This document shows positions 39,913-53,342 of a DNA stretch of 64,000 nucleotides, in pieces. Source of the DNA: Candidatus Contendibacter sp. (lineage in GTDB: Bacteria; Pseudomonadota; Gammaproteobacteria; Competibacterales; Competibacteraceae). The first letter of the stretch is position 1. Each line of letters starts with the position of its first letter. Location of the stretch: the NCBI GenBank assembly GCA_029624675.1, contig JARSSP010000071.1:124001-188000 (forward strand), given 5' to 3'. Position numbers and translations under genes: made by a program. The notes beneath the pieces are model-generated. The model saw nothing but the letters and a program-made list of their open reading frames with translations. It ran no database searches and was not told the origin of the DNA.

Positions 39913-39987
39913 TCACCCACCGCGATAGGCCGCTTTCAGCGTCTCCAACCTGTCCTTGAGCACTTCCAGGCGGCCGGTCTTGAGGCT
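39913..39987 (-). pseudogene. 3' remnant of a P1B-type ATPase gene
   Basis: About 24 codons and a stop. The translation reads SLKTGRLEVLKDRLETLKAA then YRGG. It matches the last residues of the intact P1B ATPase that ends at 46166 (SLKSGHIEALKDKLETLKVA then YRGG) with several substitutions. No further ATPase sequence lies upstream, so this is the tail of a lost paralogue. Confidence 0.72.
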
Positions 39988-43559: not shown

Positions 43560-43742
43560 TTATTTGGTCAGGATCAGTTTTCCCTGGCGGGTGATGCGCA
43601 GCCGGTATTCCTGCCCGGCGTGCTCGATCAGGATTTCCTGGTCGCCGTCGAACAGATCGCCGCTGGTCCACCGTTTCCGGGACGCGCCACTGCCGCCAGG
43701 ATCGGGTCGAGCCAAGCGCGGATCGCGGCAGGGCGGGTTCAC
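43560..43742 (-). CDS. hemP: hemin uptake protein HemP
   Basis: A 60-residue protein ending in the hallmark [20 protein letters not shown], then ILTK, of the HemP/HmuP family, small factors tied to haem uptake and Fur-regulated iron genes. The GTG start at 43742 overlaps the stop of the upstream gene (GTGA) and has a GGAG site, so it is preferred over an ATG at 43763. No haem receptor gene is adjacent. Confidence 0.85.
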
Positions 43743-44035
43743 GACGGACGCTCCATTGCACACCAGCGCCGCGCGGTCTCGGCGGCGTCACCCTGGTTCA
43801 GGCGATGCGCGCAAGCGTGCAGGCACAAGGTCCGCACGCGGCATTTGGAAGCGTGATCGAGGCAGCGAAAATCGGTCACGCTCACCGCGCCGCAAACCAG
43901 AAGCTGGTAGAGCTTCCCCGCGTCGATGGCCAACTCGATTCCGCTCTCCTCCGCCTCACGGCCGGCGGCAATTCCAGCGTCGCATAATCCGATGGGGTTT
44001 CGGTTCGGGCCACGAATCGCTTCGCTGTCGAGCAT
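43739..44035 (-). CDS. small Cys-containing protein upstream of hemP (98 aa)
   Basis: The ATG at 44035 has a GAGG site. The middle of the protein ([20 protein letters not shown] then [18 protein letters not shown]) holds six cysteines and looks like a conserved core that could bind metal or a cofactor. I recognise no named family. It is placed 11 bases after the DUF2325 gene and overlaps hemP by four bases, so it is part of the iron-regulated unit. Confidence 0.68.
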
Positions 44036-44046
44036 GACGGCGGACC

Positions 44047-45411
44047 TCACGACGCCACCGCGTTCAAGCCGCGATTGAACGCCGCCAGGCTGGCGCGCGG
44101 CAACAACACCAGCGGTTTGGTGTGGCGCTCGCAGAAGCGCCTGATCCGATGCACCGCATCGTGGCTCACGCAATCCAGCGGACAGAGCACGGCGTCCGCC
44201 TGCCGCACCACGTCCCACAGTTGCGCGCGGGCGTCCTCGCGTCCGCCGTCGTGATGGATGAAACGGCCGTTGCGGCGCTCCACCAGTTCCCGAAAATGGG
44301 CGCATAAACCTTGGCGACCGCCGACGTACAGCACGCAGCGGCCTACCAGGTCGGAGCTGACGACCGCGGCGTCGGCATCGCCGCCGTCCATGCACGGCGG
44401 CGCCAGCAGTCGTTCCAAGGTGGTTTCCAGCATGTCCCGTTCTTGGCGGGACTCGGCCAGTTGTTGCGCAAGCCACTGGTTTTGGTCGATGGAACGGGTC
44501 ACCTGTTGTTTCCAGTGGTCGGCGGCGGCTTCGGCGCGGTCGGCGCGGTCGCGGTCGGCGTCGAGCCGCTCGCGCAATTCCTCGACCTCGGCCCGCAAGC
44601 GCGCGGTCAACGGCTGCCCTTCCAGCACCGCCAAACGAGCTTCGGCGGCCTGGAGCCTGCTTTCCGCCTCCAGGGCTCGCGCCAGCCTTTTGTTCAACGC
44701 GGCGACCGCGTCTTCTTGCTCGGCCAGCCGGCGGCGGGCCGTTACCTTGGCATCGGCCAGTTGCGCTTCCAGTTCCGGGCAACGGTGTCTCAGCCGGTTC
44801 AACTCCTGTAAATCGACCCGGATCGACGCGCCGGACAAATGCGACAGCATGTGAACCTCGCCGTAGACGCGATCGAGCACGGAGTTCGGTACGCTGGGAT
44901 GCGTGATCAAGGCCCAGTAAGCGCCCGCGACGTCGCCCGAGTGCAACGCCGCATCCCAGCAGGCCGCGAACGCCTCCGCCGATTGCGCTTTGCCGATTTG
45001 CTGGATGGCCGGCCTGTACTTGCGATCCAGATGCTTGTGGATCAGGCGACTCGCGGGCGTGGCTTCGCGGGCCGCAACGACAAATGCGCGATGCAAATCG
45101 TAATCGCTGGTCGGGGCTTGAGCGCCGCCGCCCAGCCGCCGCTGGAGTTGGCGCAGTTCGGCCAGGGTCAGGCAAGTACCGATTACGCTACAGTGATAGT
45201 ATTGATCGAGTTCCCAAAGCTTTTTGCGCGGCGCGGCGAGTGATTTCCGAGGCTCCGCTGGGGGACAGGGCAAAAATGTCGGCCCGAGCGGCTTATCGCT
45301 ACCTGGAGCGTTGCCCAAACAAAACTTCTTGCGCGGCATCGCGGAGAGGGCCTCGGGGGCGCCCCGAACGACTTGCGGGGATTTCAGCACGGCGTGATGC
45401 AGCTCGCACAT
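44047..45411 (-). CDS. DUF2325 domain protein with long coiled coil
   Basis: About 454 residues. A conserved N-terminal region (KLWELDQYYHCSVIGTCLTL) is followed by a helical domain and a coiled coil (residues about 220-340, rich in A/E/R/L with RAEVEELRERLDADRDRADR). The C-terminal DUF2325 domain has GRCVLYVGGRQGLCAHFREL, HHDGG, LCPLDCVSHDAV and KPLVLLPRAS. Its function is unknown; the domain resembles a nucleotide or metal sensor. ATG 45411 lies 33 bases from the -10 of a strong promoter. First gene of the hemP operon. Confidence 0.78.
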   Translation of the reverse strand: MCELHHAVLKSPQVVRGAPEALSAMPRKKFCLGNAPGSDKPLGPTFLPCPPAEPRKSLAAPRKKLWELDQYYHCSVIGTCLTLAELRQLQRRLGGGAQAPTSDYDLHRAFVVAAREATPASRLIHKHLDRKYRPAIQQIGKAQSAEAFAACWDAALHSGDVAGAYWALITHPSVPNSVLDRVYGEVHMLSHLSGASIRVDLQELNRLRHRCPELEAQLADAKVTARRRLAEQEDAVAALNKRLARALEAESRLQAAEARLAVLEGQPLTARLRAEVEELRERLDADRDRADRAEAAADHWKQQVTRSIDQNQWLAQQLAESRQERDMLETTLERLLAPPCMDGGDADAAVVSSDLVGRCVLYVGGRQGLCAHFRELVERRNGRFIHHDGGREDARAQLWDVVRQADAVLCPLDCVSHDAVHRIRRFCERHTKPLVLLPRASLAAFNRGLNAVAS

Positions 45412-45439: not shown

Positions 45440-45458
45440 TTTAATGATAATAATTCTC
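45440..45458. promoter_or_regulatory. Fur box for the DUF2325-hemP operon
   Basis: The 19 bases TTTAATGATAATAATTCTC match the GATAATGATAATCATTATC consensus at 15 positions. The site covers the -10 and spacer of the promoter, so iron-loaded Fur would block transcription. Confidence 0.75.
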
Positions 45459-45471
45459 GTTTAGATGTCAA
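45444..45471 (-). promoter_or_regulatory. sigma70 promoter of the DUF2325-hemP operon
   Basis: On the minus strand a perfect TTGACA (45471-45466) is followed after 16 bases by TATCAT (45449-45444). The transcript would begin about 26 bases before the DUF2325 ATG. Confidence 0.72.
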
Positions 45472-45535: not shown

Positions 45536-46054
45536 GAGTGATCGCTGTTTTCGACCCCACCCCGCCGCTCGGCCATGACGCCCAACTCGCGCTTCGACCG
45601 CTGGCTGCTCGGCGACAAGGATGCGCTGACCGCAACCGAACTGGCGGGCTACAATTTGTTCAAGACCAGCGGCTGCGTCGCCTGCCACAACGGCTCGGTC
45701 GTGGGCGGCAACTCCTTCCAGAAGATGGGTGTCGTGACGCCCTACAAGACCACGAGCACGGCCGAGGGGATGGCGGGCGTGACCGGCAAGGATGCCGACC
45801 GCTTCAAGCTCAAGGTGCCGACCCTGCGCAACGTGGAACTGACCTATCCCTACTTCCACGATGGCGCGGCGCAGACCCTGACCGAGGCGGTGGACATCAT
45901 GGGCCGCTTGCAGTTGGGCAAGAAGTTCACCGCCGAGGAGAACACCAAGATCGTGGCCTTCCTCAAGGCCCTGACCGGCGATCAGCCGTCGTTCCTGATG
46001 CCGATCCTGCCGCCGTCGACCGACAAGACCCCGCCGCCGAAGCCGTTCGGTTAA
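45536..46054 (+). pseudogene. di-haem cytochrome c peroxidase, truncated and frameshifted
   Basis: The frame from 45575 encodes the C-terminal haem domain of a MauG/CcpA-type peroxidase (TPNSRFDRWLLGDKDALT, haem site CVACH, LKVPTLRNVELTYPYFHDGA, QTLTEAVDIMG). The preceding residues VIAVFD are in another frame, so a frameshift separates them. No N-terminal haem domain or signal peptide exists upstream, where the hemP operon promoter lies instead. About half of the about 330 residue protein is left. A terminator follows. Confidence 0.78.
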
Positions 46055-46165: not shown

Positions 46166-48328
46166 CTAATCCACCCGTCCGCCGCGATAAGCCACCTTCA
46201 GCGTCTCCAACTTGTCCTTGAGCGCTTCGATATGACCGGATTTAAGGCTGACGCCGGCGATCGAGTTGAGCAGCACGCCGAGCGTCATGCCGTTGTGCAG
46301 CAGCGCCGACCACACCGGCGAGAGCAGGCCGAACGCCGCGCCGGCGATGACCGCCGTGTTGACGCCGGTGGAGACGCGGAAATGGTTGCGGATCAGGCGC
46401 AGGGTCCCCGCGCTCAGCGTTCTGGCCGCCAGCAAGGTCTGCAAATGCTCGTCGAGCAGCACGATGTCGGCGGTGGCGCGAGCCAGATCCGCGCCTCGGG
46501 GCATGGCCAACCCCACGTCGGCGGCGATCAGCGCCGGGGCGTCGTTCACCCCGTCGCCGATGAACGCTACTTTCGCGCCTTGCGCCCGCAGTTGTTCGAC
46601 CACGGCGGCTTTGCGTTCCGGCGGGCATTCGGCGTGGACTTCGTCCATATCCAACTCCCGCGCCAGCGCCTCGGCCTTGTCCTGGCGGTCGCCGGTGAGC
46701 AGCACCAGCCGCCGAATTCCGGATTGGCGCAGTTGCGCCAGCACCGTTTTTGCTTCCGGGCGCAGGCTGTCGCGTAGACCGATCAACCCCAGCGGCTGCT
46801 GTTCCAACGCCACGTAGAGCAGCGTTTTGCCGGATTGCTCCAGCGCCGCGATGCGCTCTTCATGGGCGGCGAACGAGATATTTTGATGCGCTTCGAGAAA
46901 ATGTCGGCTTCCGATCACCACGCAGCGCCCTTCGGCGTGGGTGGTGAGACCGTGCGCCACCAGATAATCCACGTCTTCGTGTTCGATGTGCCCCAGATGC
47001 TGCCGGCGGGCCTGCTTGACCACCGCATCGGCGACCGGGTGCGTCGCGTGTTCCTCGATGGAGGCCACCAGCGCCAGCAGATGCGCCGCTTCCCAGTCCG
47101 CATCCAGGCTCAGTACGTCGGTTACTTCCAGCAGGCCGCTGGTCAAGGTGCCGGTCTTGTCGAACACGAAGGTGTCGGCTTGGGCCAGGCTGTCGAGCGC
47201 CGAACTGCCGCGAAACAAAATGCCGTGCTTGGCGCCCTGGTACATGGCGGACTTGATCGCCACCGGCGTGCCGAGTTTCAGGGCGCAGGCGTAATCCACC
47301 AGAAACACCGAGGCCAAGCGGTCGAGATCGCCGGTCGCGGCATACACCAGCGCGCCGGTGCCCAGCGTCAGATAGACCCGCTTGTCGGCCAGTTGCTCGG
47401 CCAGAGACTGGGTTCGCGACTGCTGTTGCAAGGCGTTTTCGATGAAGCGGGCGATGCGCGCGGTGGTGGTTTCCGCGCCGACGCGGGTGGCGCGGATGCG
47501 CAGGCGACCGCCTTCCAGCACGGTGCCGGACAGCACCTTGTCGCCCGGTTCCTTGCGCACGGCCAAGTTCTCGCCGGTGACGGACGCCTGATTGACCGCC
47601 GCGTTGCCGCCGACGACCTTGCCGTCGATGGGGATCATCTCGCCCGGTCCGACTTCGATGCGATCGCCGACGCGCAGTTCGTCGCACGGGATTTGCACCA
47701 GCACGCCGTCGCGCTCGACCCAGGCTTGCGTTGGCATCGGCTTGAGCAGATGGCGCAGCAGATCGTCGGCGTGGCGGGCGGTGCGCTGCTCCAGATACCC
47801 GCCCAACGCCAGCAAGCCTTGGGTGGCGATGGCGGTGAAATACTCGCCCCGCGCCGCCGCCAGGCTCACCGCCAGACTGTCCAGCACCTCGATTTTCAGC
47901 CCTTTCCGGCTCAGGGTCTGCGCGCCTTCCCACACGGTCGGAGCGATCAGGGCGTAGGTTAGCCAGCGGCGCAGCGGTTCAGCCAACATGGGCAGTAGGA
48001 TCAGGCCACCCAACGCGCCGAACACCCGCAGCAAGTCGGGATCGGGCCGGCTGGCGACCGGGCTGGGTTCGGTCAGAAATTCCGGGGGCGGTCGCCGGAA
48101 CCAGTCCAGGATCGCGCGGCGGTGGTGGCTCTGGCCGTCGTACTCGATGGCGATGCTGCCCGCATGGAGATTGGCCCGCGCGCCGCGCACGCCACCGAGG
48201 CTCAGCAGCGCGGCTTCCAGAGATAACCGGTCCAGTCGGCGGTCGGCCAGCCAGGGCGCGCGCAAGCGCAGGCGCTGGGGCAGTTCGTGGGCCAACTCGA
48301 CCGTGGGCAGAGTTTCTGGAATCTGCAT
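46166..48328 (-). CDS. P1B-type metal ATPase without CPC motif (FezB-like)
   Basis: A 720-residue P-type ATPase. An N-terminal HMA-like domain (residues 10-80) lacks CxxC and instead starts HELPQRLRLR (14-23). TGEN (251-254) marks the actuator, D390 in FDKTGTLT is the phosphorylation site, H430-P431 lies in the nucleotide domain, and GDGVNDAPAL is the hinge. The ion-path helix reads DYACALKLGTP instead of CPC/SPC, so copper or zinc transport is unlikely. Clustering with four small HMA/membrane proteins, feoAB and a ferritin suggests iron, as in P1B-6 ATPases of ferrosomes. It is last in the unit, and no strong ribosome binding site is seen. Confidence 0.82.
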   Translation of the reverse strand: MQIPETLPTVELAHELPQRLRLRAPWLADRRLDRLSLEAALLSLGGVRGARANLHAGSIAIEYDGQSHHRRAILDWFRRPPPEFLTEPSPVASRPDPDLLRVFGALGGLILLPMLAEPLRRWLTYALIAPTVWEGAQTLSRKGLKIEVLDSLAVSLAAARGEYFTAIATQGLLALGGYLEQRTARHADDLLRHLLKPMPTQAWVERDGVLVQIPCDELRVGDRIEVGPGEMIPIDGKVVGGNAAVNQASVTGENLAVRKEPGDKVLSGTVLEGGRLRIRATRVGAETTTARIARFIENALQQQSRTQSLAEQLADKRVYLTLGTGALVYAATGDLDRLASVFLVDYACALKLGTPVAIKSAMYQGAKHGILFRGSSALDSLAQADTFVFDKTGTLTSGLLEVTDVLSLDADWEAAHLLALVASIEEHATHPVADAVVKQARRQHLGHIEHEDVDYLVAHGLTTHAEGRCVVIGSRHFLEAHQNISFAAHEERIAALEQSGKTLLYVALEQQPLGLIGLRDSLRPEAKTVLAQLRQSGIRRLVLLTGDRQDKAEALARELDMDEVHAECPPERKAAVVEQLRAQGAKVAFIGDGVNDAPALIAADVGLAMPRGADLARATADIVLLDEHLQTLLAARTLSAGTLRLIRNHFRVSTGVNTAVIAGAAFGLLSPVWSALLHNGMTLGVLLNSIAGVSLKSGHIEALKDKLETLKVAYRGGRVD

Positions 48329-48403
48329 CGCGTAATTTTTGGGATGGGAGTGGAAAAAAGCCGACGTCGGTGGAATCGGTTTCCCGGCGCCGGCATTGCT
48401 TGC

Positions 48404-49045
48404 CTATTTGCCGGGTTGGGCTTCCGTCTTGATCTCCGCTTCCGCGTCCTTGAAGCGTTCCTTGATCTCTTCGACGCCGCCCTGGAACAGGCTCCAAAGC
48501 TTGACCAGCGACTTGATGGCGTTTTTCTGCACCGAGTCGTTGGTCAGCAGGAAGGTCAGGGCCGCGCCGGTGATCGCGCCCTTGACGAAGCGCTCGTCGC
48601 GGAAGTTGAAAAAGCTGCCCAAGCCGCCGTCGTGATGATGATGGGGCGCATAACCCGCCTGGAACTGCGCGTAGGCGGGATGCGTGTGATAGCCGGGGTG
48701 CGCGCTGTAGCCTGGCGGGTAATACCCTGGTCCGTAGTAGCCGGGATGGCCGCCTCGGTGATGATCCTGGTGCGCCCAGGGCGGGTTGTTGCCCGGCGCG
48801 GGCGGATGGCCGTAACCGCCTCGATACTGATCCTGATAGCCGCCGTGGTGATAGACCTGATGCGCCCAAGGGGGCGGGCCATTGCTCGGCGCGGGCGGAT
48901 GGCCGTAGTGACCCTGATACTGCTCCTGGTAACCGCCGTGATACTGCGGTCCTTGTTCTGGCGGGCCTGCTTGCTGCTGGGCGGCTGGACCCTGCTGCGG
49001 ACCGGGCTGCTGTGGAGACGCCTGATTATTTTGGGTTTCGTTCAT
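48404..49045 (-). CDS. His/Tyr/Gly/Pro-rich repeat protein with C-terminal membrane segment
   Basis: A 213-residue protein. The N-terminal two thirds are low complexity: Gln/Pro-rich, then two 30-residue repeats (GGYQEQYQGHYGHPPAPSNG; GGYQDQYRGGYGHPPAPGNN), then a His/Tyr/Pro stretch ending HHHHDGG. The C-terminal third (FVKGAITGAALTFLLTNDSV and an amphipathic helix) looks like a membrane anchor. The many histidines could bind metal. ATG 49045 has a GGGAG site and overlaps the upstream gene stop. Function unknown; position suggests a structural part of the ATPase system. Confidence 0.7.
   Translation of the reverse strand: MNETQNNQASPQQPGPQQGPAAQQQAGPPEQGPQYHGGYQEQYQGHYGHPPAPSNGPPPWAHQVYHHGGYQDQYRGGYGHPPAPGNNPPWAHQDHHRGGHPGYYGPGYYPPGYSAHPGYHTHPAYAQFQAGYAPHHHHDGGLGSFFNFRDERFVKGAITGAALTFLLTNDSVQKNAIKSLVKLWSLFQGGVEEIKERFKDAEAEIKTEAQPGK
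48761..48943. repeat. two-copy tandem repeat, period about 90 bases, within the His/Tyr-rich gene
   Basis: Copies begin near 48771 and 48861 and share the stretches TGCGCCCA, GCGCGGGCGGATGGCCGTA and CCGCCGTG. They encode the 30-residue repeat, so the element is coding. Confidence 0.65.
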
Positions 49046-49383
49046 TGGGATTCTCCCTGTTTTGACGGGTTCAACAAATACATCAAGGTGGCGCTGGTCA
49101 CGAACATCGCGGCGAAACGGGTCAGGGTTTTGCTGCAACCCAGACTCTGGCCGACCAGGGTCGCGGCGGCGGTGGTCAGCCCGGTGACGGCGCCGGCTTG
49201 CAGCACGTCGTTCAACGCCAAACGGTGGTCGGCATCGTGGCGCTTGATCTGCGCGGCAGTCGCGGCGGCGGCGCCCACGGTCGCGCCCAGCGCGGCGTTT
49301 TGCAGCACCGCGACGGTGGACGGTGAAAAGGACTCTGGGCAGTCGTGCGGATAGTAGGGTGAGGGATAATAACGATCACTCAC
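49042..49383 (-). CDS. small Gly/Ala-rich membrane protein of the ATPase cluster (113 aa)
   Basis: A Tyr/Pro-rich start (MSDRYYPSPYYPHDCPESF) is followed by two to three hydrophobic helices (LQNAALGATVGAAAATAAQI, LQAGAVTGLTTAAATLVG and FAAMFVTSATLMYLL) with small-residue packing. No family recognised. It overlaps both neighbours by four bases (ATGA), which indicates tight co-expression with the HMA-like and repeat proteins. Glycine/alanine-rich membrane proteins occur in ferrosome and magnetosome clusters; that parallel is inference. Confidence 0.68.
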   Translation of the reverse strand: MSDRYYPSPYYPHDCPESFSPSTVAVLQNAALGATVGAAAATAAQIKRHDADHRLALNDVLQAGAVTGLTTAAATLVGQSLGCSKTLTRFAAMFVTSATLMYLLNPSKQGESQ

Positions 49384-49766
49384 GCGGGCGCTCCTTCAGG
49401 TGGATGGGAAGAACAGTGGTCGGGATCGGTGAACAGGCCGACTTCCGCCAGCAGCACGGGCAGCGCCTCGCCGCGACTGTGTAGAAGGCGCTCCCACCAC
49501 TGCGGCGGGATGCGCCGGGCGTCGTACTCGATCACCAGCGAAGCGGCAGACTTGTTCAGATGCAGGGCAGTGATGCCCGGCAGTCGCGCCAACCAGCTTT
49601 CCGGCGCGGCGTTCGGCCCTTGCGCCAGCCAGCCTAACACTCCGGCGTGCAGCCGCACCCGCAGTCGCCCGCGAACGTGATGGACGATGCGCAAATGGGG
49701 CAGAAGACCGGCCAACCGTGCCCAGTCGTCGCCGCTCGGCGGGATTGTCGAGTCGGACGGTTTCAA
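49380..49766 (-). CDS. HMA-like domain protein, second of pair (128 aa)
   Basis: The TTG start at 49766 overlaps the upstream stop (TTGA) and has a GAGG site. The domain begins IVHHVRGRLRVRLHAGVLG and continues through LPGITALHLNKSAASLVIEY, a ferredoxin-like HMA pattern without CxxC. It shares the H-x-x-x-G-R-L-R motif with its neighbour and with the ATPase N-terminus. It probably docks on or feeds the ATPase. The C-terminus has an unrelated His/Cys tail (DPDHCSSHPP). Confidence 0.68.
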   Translation of the reverse strand: MKPSDSTIPPSGDDWARLAGLLPHLRIVHHVRGRLRVRLHAGVLGWLAQGPNAAPESWLARLPGITALHLNKSAASLVIEYDARRIPPQWWERLLHSRGEALPVLLAEVGLFTDPDHCSSHPPEGAPA

Positions 49767-50134
49767 CGAAATCCTCGCGCCAGCGACAGCACCGAGGTTT
49801 CGACGCTCTTGCGCAGCAGCGTGCCGAACAGGGCGTTGCCGAACAGGGCGCCGGCCTGCTTGACCAGATCGCCGCCGGCCGAGGCGGCGGGCGCGGCGGA
49901 TATGGGGCTGTCCAGACAACCAGCCTTGTAGAGGTGGTACAGAATGTCGTCGGCGTTCAACCGGGCGGTGTCGTAATGAATCAGCACGCTGCCGATTTTG
50001 TCGTTGTGGCTATGGCTGTCGATGCCCGGTAGTTCTGCCAGCATCTTGCCTAGCTTAGCCCGACACTCGGCCCGATGCAGACGCGCGGTCTTGATCCGCA
50101 GACGACCCGGAACATGATGGATGTAGTAGCTCAT
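49763..50134 (-). CDS. HMA-like domain protein, first of pair (123 aa)
   Basis: Starts directly with the HMA_2-like domain: MSYYIHHVPGRLRIKTARLH, then LAELPGIDSHSHNDKIGSVL, IHYD and the helix of DDILYHLYKAG. The metal-binding CxxC is replaced by the HHVPGRLRIK motif. A C-terminal hydrophobic part (ALFGNALFGTLLRKSVETSV) may touch the membrane. It heads the five-gene group that ends with the ATPase, about 96 bases after the Cys-rich FeoB-associated gene. Confidence 0.72.
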   Translation of the reverse strand: MSYYIHHVPGRLRIKTARLHRAECRAKLGKMLAELPGIDSHSHNDKIGSVLIHYDTARLNADDILYHLYKAGCLDSPISAAPAASAGGDLVKQAGALFGNALFGTLLRKSVETSVLSLARGFR

Positions 50135-50230
50135 CGCAATGACCTCGCAACGGGATTCGAGTGGACGTTTCGATGCAATCGTTCGCCTCCCCTCGCTGGC
50201 GGGCGGGGGGGTTGAGCGAGAAAGCGGCGC

Positions 50231-50485
50231 TCAACAAGGGTCGGACGGTAATCGCTTGCGCCGCCCGACGGCGACGGGATAGACCTTGACCTGCACTTTG
50301 AAACAGGACGCATTCGACGCGCAGCCGCTACAGCCGCCAGCGGGTGGCGCGTTCTTGACCGAACTGTCATCCCCCCAGCGGACGCCGAACCGGAAAAGTC
50401 CAGACGGCAGCCAAGATCGCAACAGGGCGAGCGCGGCGATCACCACGACCAACAACGCCAAGCCGTCCTGCCACATCTCAGCCAC
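50231..50485 (-). CDS. FeoB-associated Cys-rich small membrane protein
   Basis: An 84-residue protein with one N-terminal membrane helix (DGLALLVVVIAALALL) and a cysteine cluster in GGCSGCASNASCFKVQVKVY. Small proteins of this type follow feoB in many bacteria and stand where FeoC or FeoB-associated proteins would be (DUF6587-like in my recollection). The start lies inside the end of feoB. It may assist Fe2+ transport. Confidence 0.72.
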   Translation of the reverse strand: MAEMWQDGLALLVVVIAALALLRSWLPSGLFRFGVRWGDDSSVKNAPPAGGCSGCASNASCFKVQVKVYPVAVGRRKRLPSDPC

Positions 50486-52382
50486 CTCCCAGCGCTAAGG
50501 CTACCCGGTAGGTAACGAAGGCGGCGAGATACGCCAACGCCATCAGGTAGACGAACATGAACGTCGCCCACCGCCAGGAGTTGGTCTCGCGGCGGACGGC
50601 GGCCAGCGTCGCCAGACATTGCGGGGCGAACACGTACCAGGCCAGCAACGACAGAGCCGTCGCCAGCGTCCAGCTCTGGGCCAGCGTCGTGGTCAGCGCT
50701 TCCGTGACGGCGCCTTCGTCGCCGCTCAGGGCGTACACGGTACCGAGCGCCGCCACCGCCACCTCGCGCGCCGCCAGGCCCGGCACCAAGGCGATGGCGA
50801 TCTGCCAGTTGAAGCCGATCGGCGCCAGCAACGGTTCCAGCGTCCGCCCGATCAGGCCGGCGAAGCTGTAATAAATCGCCGGTTCCGTGGCGCCTTCCGG
50901 CGCGGCGGGAAAAGTGGACAGAAACCACAGGATGACCAGCACGCTCAAGATGATCGTGCCGATCCGACGCATGAAGATCTTGGCGCGCTCCCACAAACCC
51001 AACAATACATTGGCGGGATTCGGCCATTTGTAGCTGGGCAGTTCCATCAGCAAAGGCTGCCGGTCGCCGCGCAACAGGGTCAGCCGCAACACGCCCGCCA
51101 CCGCCAGCGCGCCGACGATGCCGGTCGCGTACAGGCCGAACATGACCAGCCCTTGCAAACCGATCCCGCCCCAGACCGTGGTCGCGGGCACGAACGCGGC
51201 GATCAGCAAAACGTACACCGGCAACCGCGCCGAGCAGGTCATCAGCGGCGCGATCAGGATCGTGACCAAACGATCCAGCGGATGGGCGATGGTGCGCGCC
51301 GCCATGATGCCGGGAATGGCGCAGGCGAAGCTGGAGAGCAAGGGGATAAAGGCGCGGCCGTTCAAACCGACCGCGCTCATCAGCCGATCCATCAGGAACG
51401 CGGCGCGGGTCATGTAGCCGGAATCTTCCAGCAGCAGAATGAACAGGAACAAGATCAGGATTTGCGGCAGGAAGATCACCACGCCGCCCACGCCGGCGAC
51501 GATGCCGTCGACCAGCAGGCTCTTGAGCAGGCTCTCCTCCATGTGCGCGGAGAGCCACTGCTGCAAGCCGGCCATGCCGCCGTCGATCCAGTCCATCGGT
51601 GCTTCCGCCCAACTGAACACGGCCTGGAACATCAGGAACAGCAGGGCGAGCAAAATCAGCGGTCCCGCCACCGGATGCAGCAATACCCGGTCGAGTTGCC
51701 GGGTAAGGTGTTCCGGCGCGCCCTCGCGGACCACGGCTTCTTGCAGCAGGCGCTCCACCTCTCGGTGGTGGGCGCGAATGGCGTCCGGCGAGGGCTCCAC
51801 CCAGTCGGAGATCGCGGTGACACCATCCCCGGCCGGAGCCTGGTTCAACAGCGCGTCGATCTGGCCGAGCAGGTCTCGCACCCCGTGCTTGCGCATCGCC
51901 ACGGTGGTCACCACCGGAATGCCCAACTGCCGTGACAGCGCTTCAGTGCTGATCTGACAGCCGCGCTTCTGGGCGATGTCCATCATGTTCAGCACCAGAA
52001 TCAGCGGCCGGCCCAGTTGCCGCAACTCCAGCAACAGCCGCAAATGCTGACCCAGATTGGTGGCGTCGGTCACGCACACCAACGCATCCGGCAAGGTTTC
52101 TCGTGCCTGCCGGCCCAGCACCACGTCACGGGTGATGGCTTCGTCGGGGCTGCGGGCGCGCAGGCTGTAGCTGCCAGGCAGATCGAGCACTTCGACCGGA
52201 TGGCCGCCCGGCGTTTTCAGCAAACCGCTTTTCCGCTCGACGGTCACGCCGGGGTAGTTACCGGTCTTTTGCCGGCCGCCGGTCAGGGTGTTGAACAGGG
52301 TGGTCTTGCCGCTGTTGGGCGGACCGACCAAGGCGATGCGGGCGGGTCTGAAACCCTCCGCGGCTAGAGTTCCAGCCGTCAT
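50478..52382 (-). CDS. feoB: ferrous iron transporter B
   Basis: A 634-residue Fe2+ permease. The N-terminal G domain has G1 GPPNSGKTT (residues 20-28), G3 DLPGSYSL and G4 NMMD. About ten membrane helices follow, with the Gate motifs LSSFACAIPGIMAARTI and MTCSARLPVYVLLIAAFVP. It is shorter than the 773-residue E. coli protein but complete. The start overlaps the feoA stop by four bases. It imports iron that the neighbouring ferritin and ATPase system could store. Confidence 0.95.
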   Translation of the reverse strand: MTAGTLAAEGFRPARIALVGPPNSGKTTLFNTLTGGRQKTGNYPGVTVERKSGLLKTPGGHPVEVLDLPGSYSLRARSPDEAITRDVVLGRQARETLPDALVCVTDATNLGQHLRLLLELRQLGRPLILVLNMMDIAQKRGCQISTEALSRQLGIPVVTTVAMRKHGVRDLLGQIDALLNQAPAGDGVTAISDWVEPSPDAIRAHHREVERLLQEAVVREGAPEHLTRQLDRVLLHPVAGPLILLALLFLMFQAVFSWAEAPMDWIDGGMAGLQQWLSAHMEESLLKSLLVDGIVAGVGGVVIFLPQILILFLFILLLEDSGYMTRAAFLMDRLMSAVGLNGRAFIPLLSSFACAIPGIMAARTIAHPLDRLVTILIAPLMTCSARLPVYVLLIAAFVPATTVWGGIGLQGLVMFGLYATGIVGALAVAGVLRLTLLRGDRQPLLMELPSYKWPNPANVLLGLWERAKIFMRRIGTIILSVLVILWFLSTFPAAPEGATEPAIYYSFAGLIGRTLEPLLAPIGFNWQIAIALVPGLAAREVAVAALGTVYALSGDEGAVTEALTTTLAQSWTLATALSLLAWYVFAPQCLATLAAVRRETNSWRWATFMFVYLMALAYLAAFVTYRVALALGGG

Positions 52383-52735
52383 GATAGCCGCGCCTCCTGC
52401 CCGGTCGACGACCTCGTGTCCGCGCCCTGGTCGAGCAACGGCCCGACCAGCACGGCGTTGGCCTCGCCGCGACGCAGGGCCACGGTCATGGTCTGATTGA
52501 TCCGTACCGCCAGCGGGTCGCGACCCAGAAAACCGTGATGCAACACTTCGACGCAGGCGCCTTCGACGAAACCCATCTCCAAAAGACCGCGTTCGATGTC
52601 GCCTTCCCCGCTCTGCACGGCCAGGATGCGACCGACACCGCCCGGCCGCATCAATCCTAGGGGTTGTGTCAAACCCGCCTTCACCAAACGGCCCAGCTCG
52701 AACAGTTGGCGTTCCTGCCCACCGTGCCCGTCCAT
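52379..52735 (-). CDS. feoA: ferrous iron transport protein A
   Basis: A 118-residue SH3-like FeoA: MRPGGVGRILAVQSGEGDIE, RGLLEMGFVEGACVEVLHHG and DPLAVRINQTMTVALRRGEA are family features. It is longer than usual at both ends. The ATG follows the ferritin stop without spacer and the end overlaps feoB (ATGA). Confidence 0.9.
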   Translation of the reverse strand: MDGHGGQERQLFELGRLVKAGLTQPLGLMRPGGVGRILAVQSGEGDIERGLLEMGFVEGACVEVLHHGFLGRDPLAVRINQTMTVALRRGEANAVLVGPLLDQGADTRSSTGQEARLS

Positions 52736-53203
52736 TTAAATCTCTCCGGCGACGTAGGCGTTGGTCTGACCCGGCGCCCGCAGCATCTTGTTCACTTCGT
52801 CCAGATGCGTTTGTTCGGCGGTGATCTGCGCGCGGGCGTATTCTTCAAGACGTACGTCCTGGTCGCGAGCGCAGTCCAACAATGCGTAATAGGCTTTGAG
52901 CGCCTCGCCCTCGTGAGCCAGCGATTCGCGCAGGATGTCGCCGATATCGTGCTGGTGGGTTTCCAGCAGCGGACCGATGCCGAGGGAGGGATGGCCGCCC
53001 AGACTGGTGATCAACTCGCCGGCCTGGCGGGCGTGCATCAAGCTCTCGTCGGCCTGAGCGTTGAGCCAGCCGACGATGGGGATGCGGTTGTAGCCGTACA
53101 CCATCAGCGCGTAGTGGGTGTAGCGCACCACGCCGGCCAGCTCCAGTTCGAGAATGCGGTTCAACACGCCGATGGCGGCGTTCCGGTCAAATTCCTGGGT
53201 CAT
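52736..53203 (-). CDS. ferritin-like iron storage protein (bacterioferritin family)
   Basis: A 155-residue four-helix ferritin-like protein. Helix A LNRILELELAGVVRYTHYAL, helix B with NAQADESLMHARQAGELITS, then HPSLGIGPLLETHQHDIGDI, helix C SLAHEGEALKAYYALLD and helix D with ARAQITAEQTHLDEVNKML carry the diiron Glu/His residues. It is related to bacterioferritin. The haem methionine cannot be assigned by eye. It is the first gene after a Fur-overlapped promoter and directly precedes feoA. Confidence 0.87.
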   Translation of the reverse strand: MTQEFDRNAAIGVLNRILELELAGVVRYTHYALMVYGYNRIPIVGWLNAQADESLMHARQAGELITSLGGHPSLGIGPLLETHQHDIGDILRESLAHEGEALKAYYALLDCARDQDVRLEEYARAQITAEQTHLDEVNKMLRAPGQTNAYVAGEI

Positions 53204-53313: not shown

Positions 53314-53342
53314 ACTATACTACAAATAAGAATGGTTCTCAA
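53314..53342 (-). promoter_or_regulatory. sigma70 promoter of the ferritin-feoAB operon
   Basis: On the minus strand TTGAGA (53342-53337), a 17-base spacer and TATAGT (53319-53314) form a good promoter, about 110 bases before the ferritin ATG. The surrounding region 53204-53458 is AT-rich and holds no gene. Confidence 0.7.

Follow-up and report, generated by a model that had tools for sequence, protein, structure and literature searches.

Genes of the cluster

The window analysed here, a stretch of 64,000 nucleotides from the gammaproteobacterium Candidatus Contendibacter sp. (contig JARSSP010000071.1), carries on its minus strand, at positions 46166-50134, five adjacent genes in which an earlier note, made from the letters alone, had seen a candidate ferrosome-type iron storage locus. 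Judged from its ATPase and partner proteins, this set is a fez-type P1B-6 cluster. In the direction of transcription, the genes encode an HMA_2 protein with an amphipathic C-terminus (P0001, 49763..50134; family HMAa), an HMA_2-like protein of the HMAb family with a TTG start (P0002, 49380..49766), a Gly/Ala-rich hydrophobic protein of 113 amino acids (P0003, 49042..49383), a candidate scaffold of 213 amino acids (P0004, 48404..49045) and a FezB-like P1B-6 ATPase of 720 amino acids with an HMA_2-like N-terminus (P0005, 46166..48328). The overlaps described in the earlier note were found, at 4 bp each, between P0001 and P0002, P0002 and P0003, and P0003 and P0004 but not between P0004 and P0005, which are 75 bp apart. 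The presence of all five minus-strand open reading frames (ORFs) was confirmed by comparison with relatives. Thus, the order bfr, feoA, feoB, a gene for a Cys-rich protein and P0001 to P0005 was repeated in genome G003 (L073), the order of the last five genes was the same in genome G019 (L074), and ratios of nonsynonymous to synonymous substitution (dN/dS) between the window and these relatives were 0.13-0.40 for each of the five genes, low-complexity P0004 included. Because gene order recurs and every gene is under purifying selection, P0001-P0005 are not chance ORFs.

P0005 matched the P1B ATPase model TIGR01525 with an E value of 8.9e-152 and, at its N-terminus, matched HMA_2 weakly (1.9e-5). 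As had been claimed, the protein lacks both CxxC, which was not present in the N-terminus, and CPC, since transmembrane segment 4 (TM4) reads DYACALKLGTP where CPC is expected and contains neither CPC nor SPC. TM6 reads LLHNGMTL and includes, with its histidine H678, the HN motif, a conserved feature of P1B-6 ATPases (PMC9374683). HN in TM6 and absence of CPC were common to all FezB-like rows aligned, and P0005 is classed by these motifs and by phylogeny as a P1B-6 pump.

Matches to HMA_2 (PF19991) at 5.6e-9 for P0001 and 4e-5 for P0002 bore out the two HMA-like proteins of the earlier note, to which the N-terminus of P0005 adds a third HMA-like domain. Comparison of P0002 with several remote HMAb members gave values of 38-47%, and no relative of P0001 was found on viral contigs. 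The HMA-like proteins of the locus lack CxxC and therefore probably serve in protein-protein contacts or as scaffold, not as chaperones for Cu/Zn. The other two small proteins were also as described. Thus, P0003 has hydrophobic Gly/Ala-rich stretches, while P0004 contains 18 His and 16 Tyr within its first 150 residues, which form an N-terminal low-complexity arm rich in Gly, Pro, Gln, His and Tyr with one internal repeat at a spacing of 93 nucleotides. The C-terminus of P0004 is a membrane/amphipathic module of a YtxH-annotated family (E values down to 1e-22 against remote members). The profile of this family found a Deinococcus DUF6110 protein (E 9e-5, hhalign probability 89%) and showed no detectable similarity to a Rhodococcus DUF1490 protein. 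The statement that two small membrane proteins belong to no named family consequently held for P0003, for which no family match was found, but not for P0004, which had no match in the Pfam search but is related through its C-terminus to DUF6110. Genes for DUF6110 proteins accompany those of P1B-6 ATPases, and a role in gathering these pumps into membrane platforms has been proposed for the proteins (PMC9374683, PMC13043812).

Phylogeny of the ATPase and composition of related clusters

In a maximum-likelihood tree of 54 ATPases, which included neither a confirmed ZntA-type P1B-2 pump nor FezB of D. magneticus or C. difficile, P0005 joined all FezB-like sequences (clades A and B) with support of 100/97. 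Outside these clades were AfCopA, LpCopA, the CoaT/P1B-4 ATPase of PDB 7qbz and those ATPases of the window's own genome that have CPC. The nearest outside branches came from Deinococcus, where the ATPase is encoded together with a DUF6110 protein, and from Rhodococcus, where a CtpC-like ATPase accompanies a DUF1490 protein. Thus, P0005 was in neither the CopA nor the CoaT clade, and the grouping with Cu+, Zn2+ or Co2+ exporters that the earlier note had held to be damaging was not seen among the types sampled (no ZntA-type row); instead, the ATPase fell with P1B-6 ATPases of fez-type clusters. Its own place was in clade A (100/97), the sister of clade B. Support for clade A was lower, at 94 by the Shimodaira-Hasegawa-like approximate likelihood ratio test, in a later quick tree with extra Shewanella rows.

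Members of clade A included Vibrio sp. THAF190c, Cereibacter, most sampled Shewanella clusters (G854, G1146 and others), Ferrimonas-like genomes and genomes G527, G477, G404, G463, G020 and G781, while clade B held Rhodopseudomonas and the six-gene cluster of Shewanella genome G1196. The MtrB of G1196 shares 90% identity with the solved MtrB chain 6r2q, which we take to be that of Shewanella baltica, and G1196 is therefore an S. baltica/putrefaciens-like species. Genome G612 was also considered as Shewanella and rejected, its MtrB-family porins being only about 37% identical to the solved chain; it is more likely Ferrimonas-like. Wherever genomes were searched, one P1B-6 match per genome was noted, and clades A and B thus do not co-occur in the listed genomes.

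Six fez genes, RPA2333-2338, have been published for Rhodopseudomonas palustris, and such clusters are reported to make ferrosomes (PMC12016538); the same genes respond to low light together with iron genes (PMC6879726). With FezA-FezC defined from secondary papers, the sole FezB-like ATPase of Rhodopseudomonas sp. BR0M22 was found in exactly six genes, which encode an HMA protein with a haem-type tail (FezC-like), HMAb, Hyp1, Hyp2, YtxH and the ATPase. In Rhodopseudomonas relatives the cluster lies near 2.5 Mb of 5.3 Mb, the place expected for RPA2333 of about 4,800 genes, and gene number, genus and position together argue strongly that it corresponds to RPA2333-2338. The H-x3-G-x9-H tail is invariant in the FezC-like alignment, in agreement with reports of FezC as a haem cytochrome (PMC10979944, PMC11334425). 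P0001 is the clade A counterpart of FezC without this haem-type tail. The genes named as required in C. difficile do not include FezC (PMC12574912).

The difference between clades was evident from a comparison of 24 clade A with 85 clade B clusters, the latter ranked by likeness to Azospirillum; the single genome scan covered the best 80 of 511 relatives, all from taxa other than D. magneticus, D. indicum and C. difficile. Thus, haem-type FezC was noted in 2/24 clade A as opposed to 74/85 clade B clusters and HMAa, the P0001 family, in 23/24 as opposed to 0/85, while the median peak His+Tyr content of scaffold proteins (50-residue window) was 0.28 for clade A and 0.04 for clade B (Mann-Whitney p = 1.6e-14), a contrast that, the clusters being related by descent, is one ancient split with exceptions and should not be counted as 109 separate events. 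Both clades have the ATPase, HMAb and the DUF6110-like scaffold (YtxH), and small HMA and YtxH/DUF6110-like partners adjoined essentially all relatives of P0005, so that the lack of such partners near orthologues, which the earlier note had also held to be damaging, was not seen. FezC was present in the fetched stretch beside the clade A ATPases of G020, from the window's own family, and G912, and can therefore partner a clade A pump.

One genome of the Rhodopseudomonas set (L193, G781) has, with FeoAB, a clade A-type cluster where its relatives have the fez cluster of clade B. A metagenome-assembled genome named Stygiobacter (Ignavibacteria; L141) has a fez cluster with an ATPase that nests next to Rhodopseudomonas, by recent transfer or bin contamination. 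Five further loci (L076, L078, L080, L081 and L083) encode P-type ATPases of about 1000-1200 amino acids with HMA_2 near small HMA_2 proteins, unlike P1B-6 clusters.

Iron genes, control and loss

The five genes continue an operon that begins with a bacterioferritin/ferritin-like gene (bfr, 52736..53203; PF00210, 2.8e-18), followed on the same minus strand by feoA (52379..52735), assigned by sequence and position and similar to other FeoA, and feoB (50478..52382; TIGR00437, 3.9e-145). The fez-type cluster is cotranscribable with these genes. It was said to lie directly behind them, which is correct as to the operon but overlooks P0006 (50231..50485, minus), a Cys-rich small membrane ORF of 84 amino acids in the interval between feoB and P0001. 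P0006 had no Pfam match; its position and appearance suggest a protein of the FeoB-associated type.

Ahead of bfr, a candidate sigma-70-like promoter (TTGAGA-17-TATAGT; 53314..53342, minus), recognised by consensus match only, overlaps a Fur-like site, TAAGAATGGTTCTCA, at 53327-53341. This site has 2 mismatches to TGAGAATNATTCTCA, about 0.9 sites at ≤3 mismatches being expected by chance in the window. A full canonical Fur box was not found in the operon promoter, where only the GAGAAT-type variant fits. A second Fur-like site, at 45445-45459, lies across a promoter that precedes the DUF2325 and hemP genes. The site ahead of bfr is within what chance would supply in the window, and both sites are at most suggestive of Fur control. 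In C. difficile, fezA and fezB are Fur-repressed (PMC12574912).

The DUF2325 (PF10087, 1e-22) and hemP (PF10636, 1e-19) genes form a second iron gene set at 43560-45411 (minus), and a DUF2325 gene also flanks the fez-type cluster of Arcobacter (L070). Between the two iron gene sets, at 45575-46054 on the plus strand, is a c-type cytochrome/MauG-like fragment (Cytochrom_C 2e-4, CCP_MauG 6e-5), possibly of a truncated di-haem peroxidase.

Iron genes also accompany related clusters. Thus, Feo genes were noted near 7/24 clade A and 13/85 clade B clusters, and iron/siderophore or iron ATP-binding cassette transporter genes flank those of Cereibacter and Azospirillum. Genes for DUF2202 proteins, presumably ferritin-like, were found inside 15/80 named clade B clusters (e.g., L128, L158 and L070), many of them betaproteobacterial or from Arcobacter.

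Among relatives of the window the cluster was often reduced. Genome G022 (L084) has an intact bfr-feoA-feoB followed by a scar (L084 8549-8758) in place of the equivalent of 46620-50295, and other cluster fragments were found in G004 and G003; remnants or scars were noted in L085 and L086 as well. The window, too, retains a piece of an ATPase 3'-end, a remnant of 50 bp (39917..39966, minus) that is 88% identical to 46179-46228. A full-length FezB-like ATPase was present in only four sampled relatives (G003, G008, G019 and G020), a few more having fragments, and an ATPase match at E ≤ 1e-100 was obtained in 8/398 genomes of the phylum, including the window's own. The cluster is thus dispensable and patchy, and repeated loss of the ATPase genes while bfr-feoAB stays is suggested.

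Interpretation and comparison with known systems

The reading that we favour, with a probability of about 0.6, is that of a fez-type (ferrosome-type) cluster of a distinct clade. Tree and partners thus upheld the fez-type identity proposed in the earlier note, but that the locus makes ferrosomes we only infer, because it belongs to a sister clade and lacks full-length FezC and Hyp1. Several findings weigh against this reading. The ATPase grouped with fez-type ATPases of Rhodopseudomonas and Shewanella, as the earlier note had anticipated, but was sister to the R. palustris-type clade and not inside it. Hyp1 was absent from the window's cluster and full-length FezC was not found in the window's genome (G000), where only the HMA half matched; haem-type FezC was likewise absent from most clade A genomes. 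Profile searches, which placed P0002 in HMAb and P0004 with YtxH/DUF6110-like proteins, did not establish homology of P0003 to Hyp2, which has the corresponding place in other clusters (hhalign probability 8-10%, E about 0.003-0.004; hmmsearch E 0.5). Fe(II) as the substrate is suggested by neighbouring genes and not by the pump itself. No published experiment on any clade A member was found in a literature search that did not extend to the primary ferrosome papers, and we know of no clade A member examined by microscopy for ferrosomes.

If this reading is correct, Fe(II) imported by FeoAB would be handed to the HMA-like proteins, and P0004, probably with P0003, would concentrate the P1B-6 ATPase in a membrane patch or vesicle. 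There the pump would clear Fe(II) from the cytosol and load it into a store enclosed by membrane, either a vesicle or a periplasm-like lumen. The P0004 arm, rich in His and Tyr, may capture iron or cluster the assembly, and the ferritin of the same operon may handle soluble storage. Expression would occur under iron limitation through Fur, the store being filled on refeeding. We suggest, tentatively and at less than even odds, that clade A represents a second way to build an iron-storing organelle, in which the haem cytochrome FezC is dispensed with and a His/Tyr/Pro/Gly-rich, probably condensate-forming, iron-binding scaffold is fused to a DUF6110-like membrane module, here in an operon with FeoAB and bacterioferritin. 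Clade A clusters may already figure among the broadly conserved fez clusters listed by the original authors, which would cut the novelty but not the assignment.

Plain iron efflux, in which the P1B-6 ATPase would relieve iron stress by carrying Fe(II) outward through the cytoplasmic membrane, with the small proteins merely stabilising it and no compartment being made, is the strongest alternative, although we think it unlikely. P1B ATPases generally export, topology is equal for efflux and vesicle loading, and DUF6110, to which P0004 is related, is a stabiliser type resembling PacL; yet homologous clusters are reported to make ferrosomes (PMC12016538), and an operon shared with a Feo importer behind a Fur-like promoter does not suit a detoxifying exporter, whose induction should come from excess iron. 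Less probable again is a PacL/CtpC-like efflux platform for another metal (Zn2+, Mn2+ or several), with P0004 binding metal and clustering the pump. The Rhodococcus DUF1490/CtpC-type pump does branch next to the P1B-6 clade and has the HN motif in common with it, and the small membrane protein PacL1 has a metal-binding motif that includes His (PMC9374683); however, CtpC-type pumps keep the CPC that P0005 lacks, the YtxH module shows no detectable relation to DUF1490, and the genomic context is iron. That the cluster is decaying and no longer functions in this lineage, as its deletion or fragmentation in G022, G004 and G003 and the ATPase remnant in the window might indicate, is highly improbable given five intact genes with the dN/dS ratios noted above and retention of the cluster in G003 and G019.

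Ferrosomes are recently found bacterial organelles that have been studied in few species, and Gammaproteobacteria are normally thought to rely on ferritin; the window has ferritin and a fez-type system in one operon. If clade A makes ferrosomes, their range would extend to many marine and freshwater proteobacteria, the haem chemistry of FezC would be dispensable, and comparison of the clades, in which FezC is exchanged for a His/Tyr-rich scaffold, would make the roles of the unnamed small Fez proteins testable. The link between the YtxH-like Fez protein and DUF6110 and, via the literature, PacL-type scaffolds suggests a common principle, in which P1B-6 pumps are collected into patches by a small scaffold protein of the membrane and thus serve either export of a metal or its enclosure.

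Of the known systems, the mycobacterial PacL1-CtpC effluxosome resembles the window in combining a small membrane scaffold that has metal-binding residues with a P1B-6-like HN pump; it differs in the CPC of CtpC, DUF1490 in place of the DUF6110-like module, zinc efflux and absence of HMA-like partners, and neither CPC nor a DUF1490 match was found in the window's cluster. FezA/FezB of C. difficile, for which Fur repression is reported (PMC12574912), likewise pair a P1B-6 type pump with a small membrane protein but have a smaller gene content. The R. palustris-type cluster (L121/L194, clade B) shares with the window a P1B-6 ATPase that carries HN in TM6 but lacks CPC, the two pumps being about 43% identical, as well as partners of the HMAb and YtxH/DUF6110-like kinds, an HMA protein at the head, a tight operon and, often, Feo genes nearby; in contrast, the window is in the sister clade, lacks the haem-type FezC tail and Hyp1, has P0003 in the place of Hyp2 (homology unproven), adds a His/Tyr-rich scaffold arm and lies inside the bfr-feoAB operon. 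Marine clade A clusters differ from the window in a second P/H-rich protein (Ce1 type), a recognisable Hyp2 and no Feo genes found adjoining. In other respects, clade A clusters (Vibrio sp. THAF190c, Shewanella, Ferrimonas-like and Cereibacter) resemble that of the window in ATPase clade, HMAa without haem tail, HMAb (all but Cereibacter), P/Y/H-rich scaffold proteins and YtxH.

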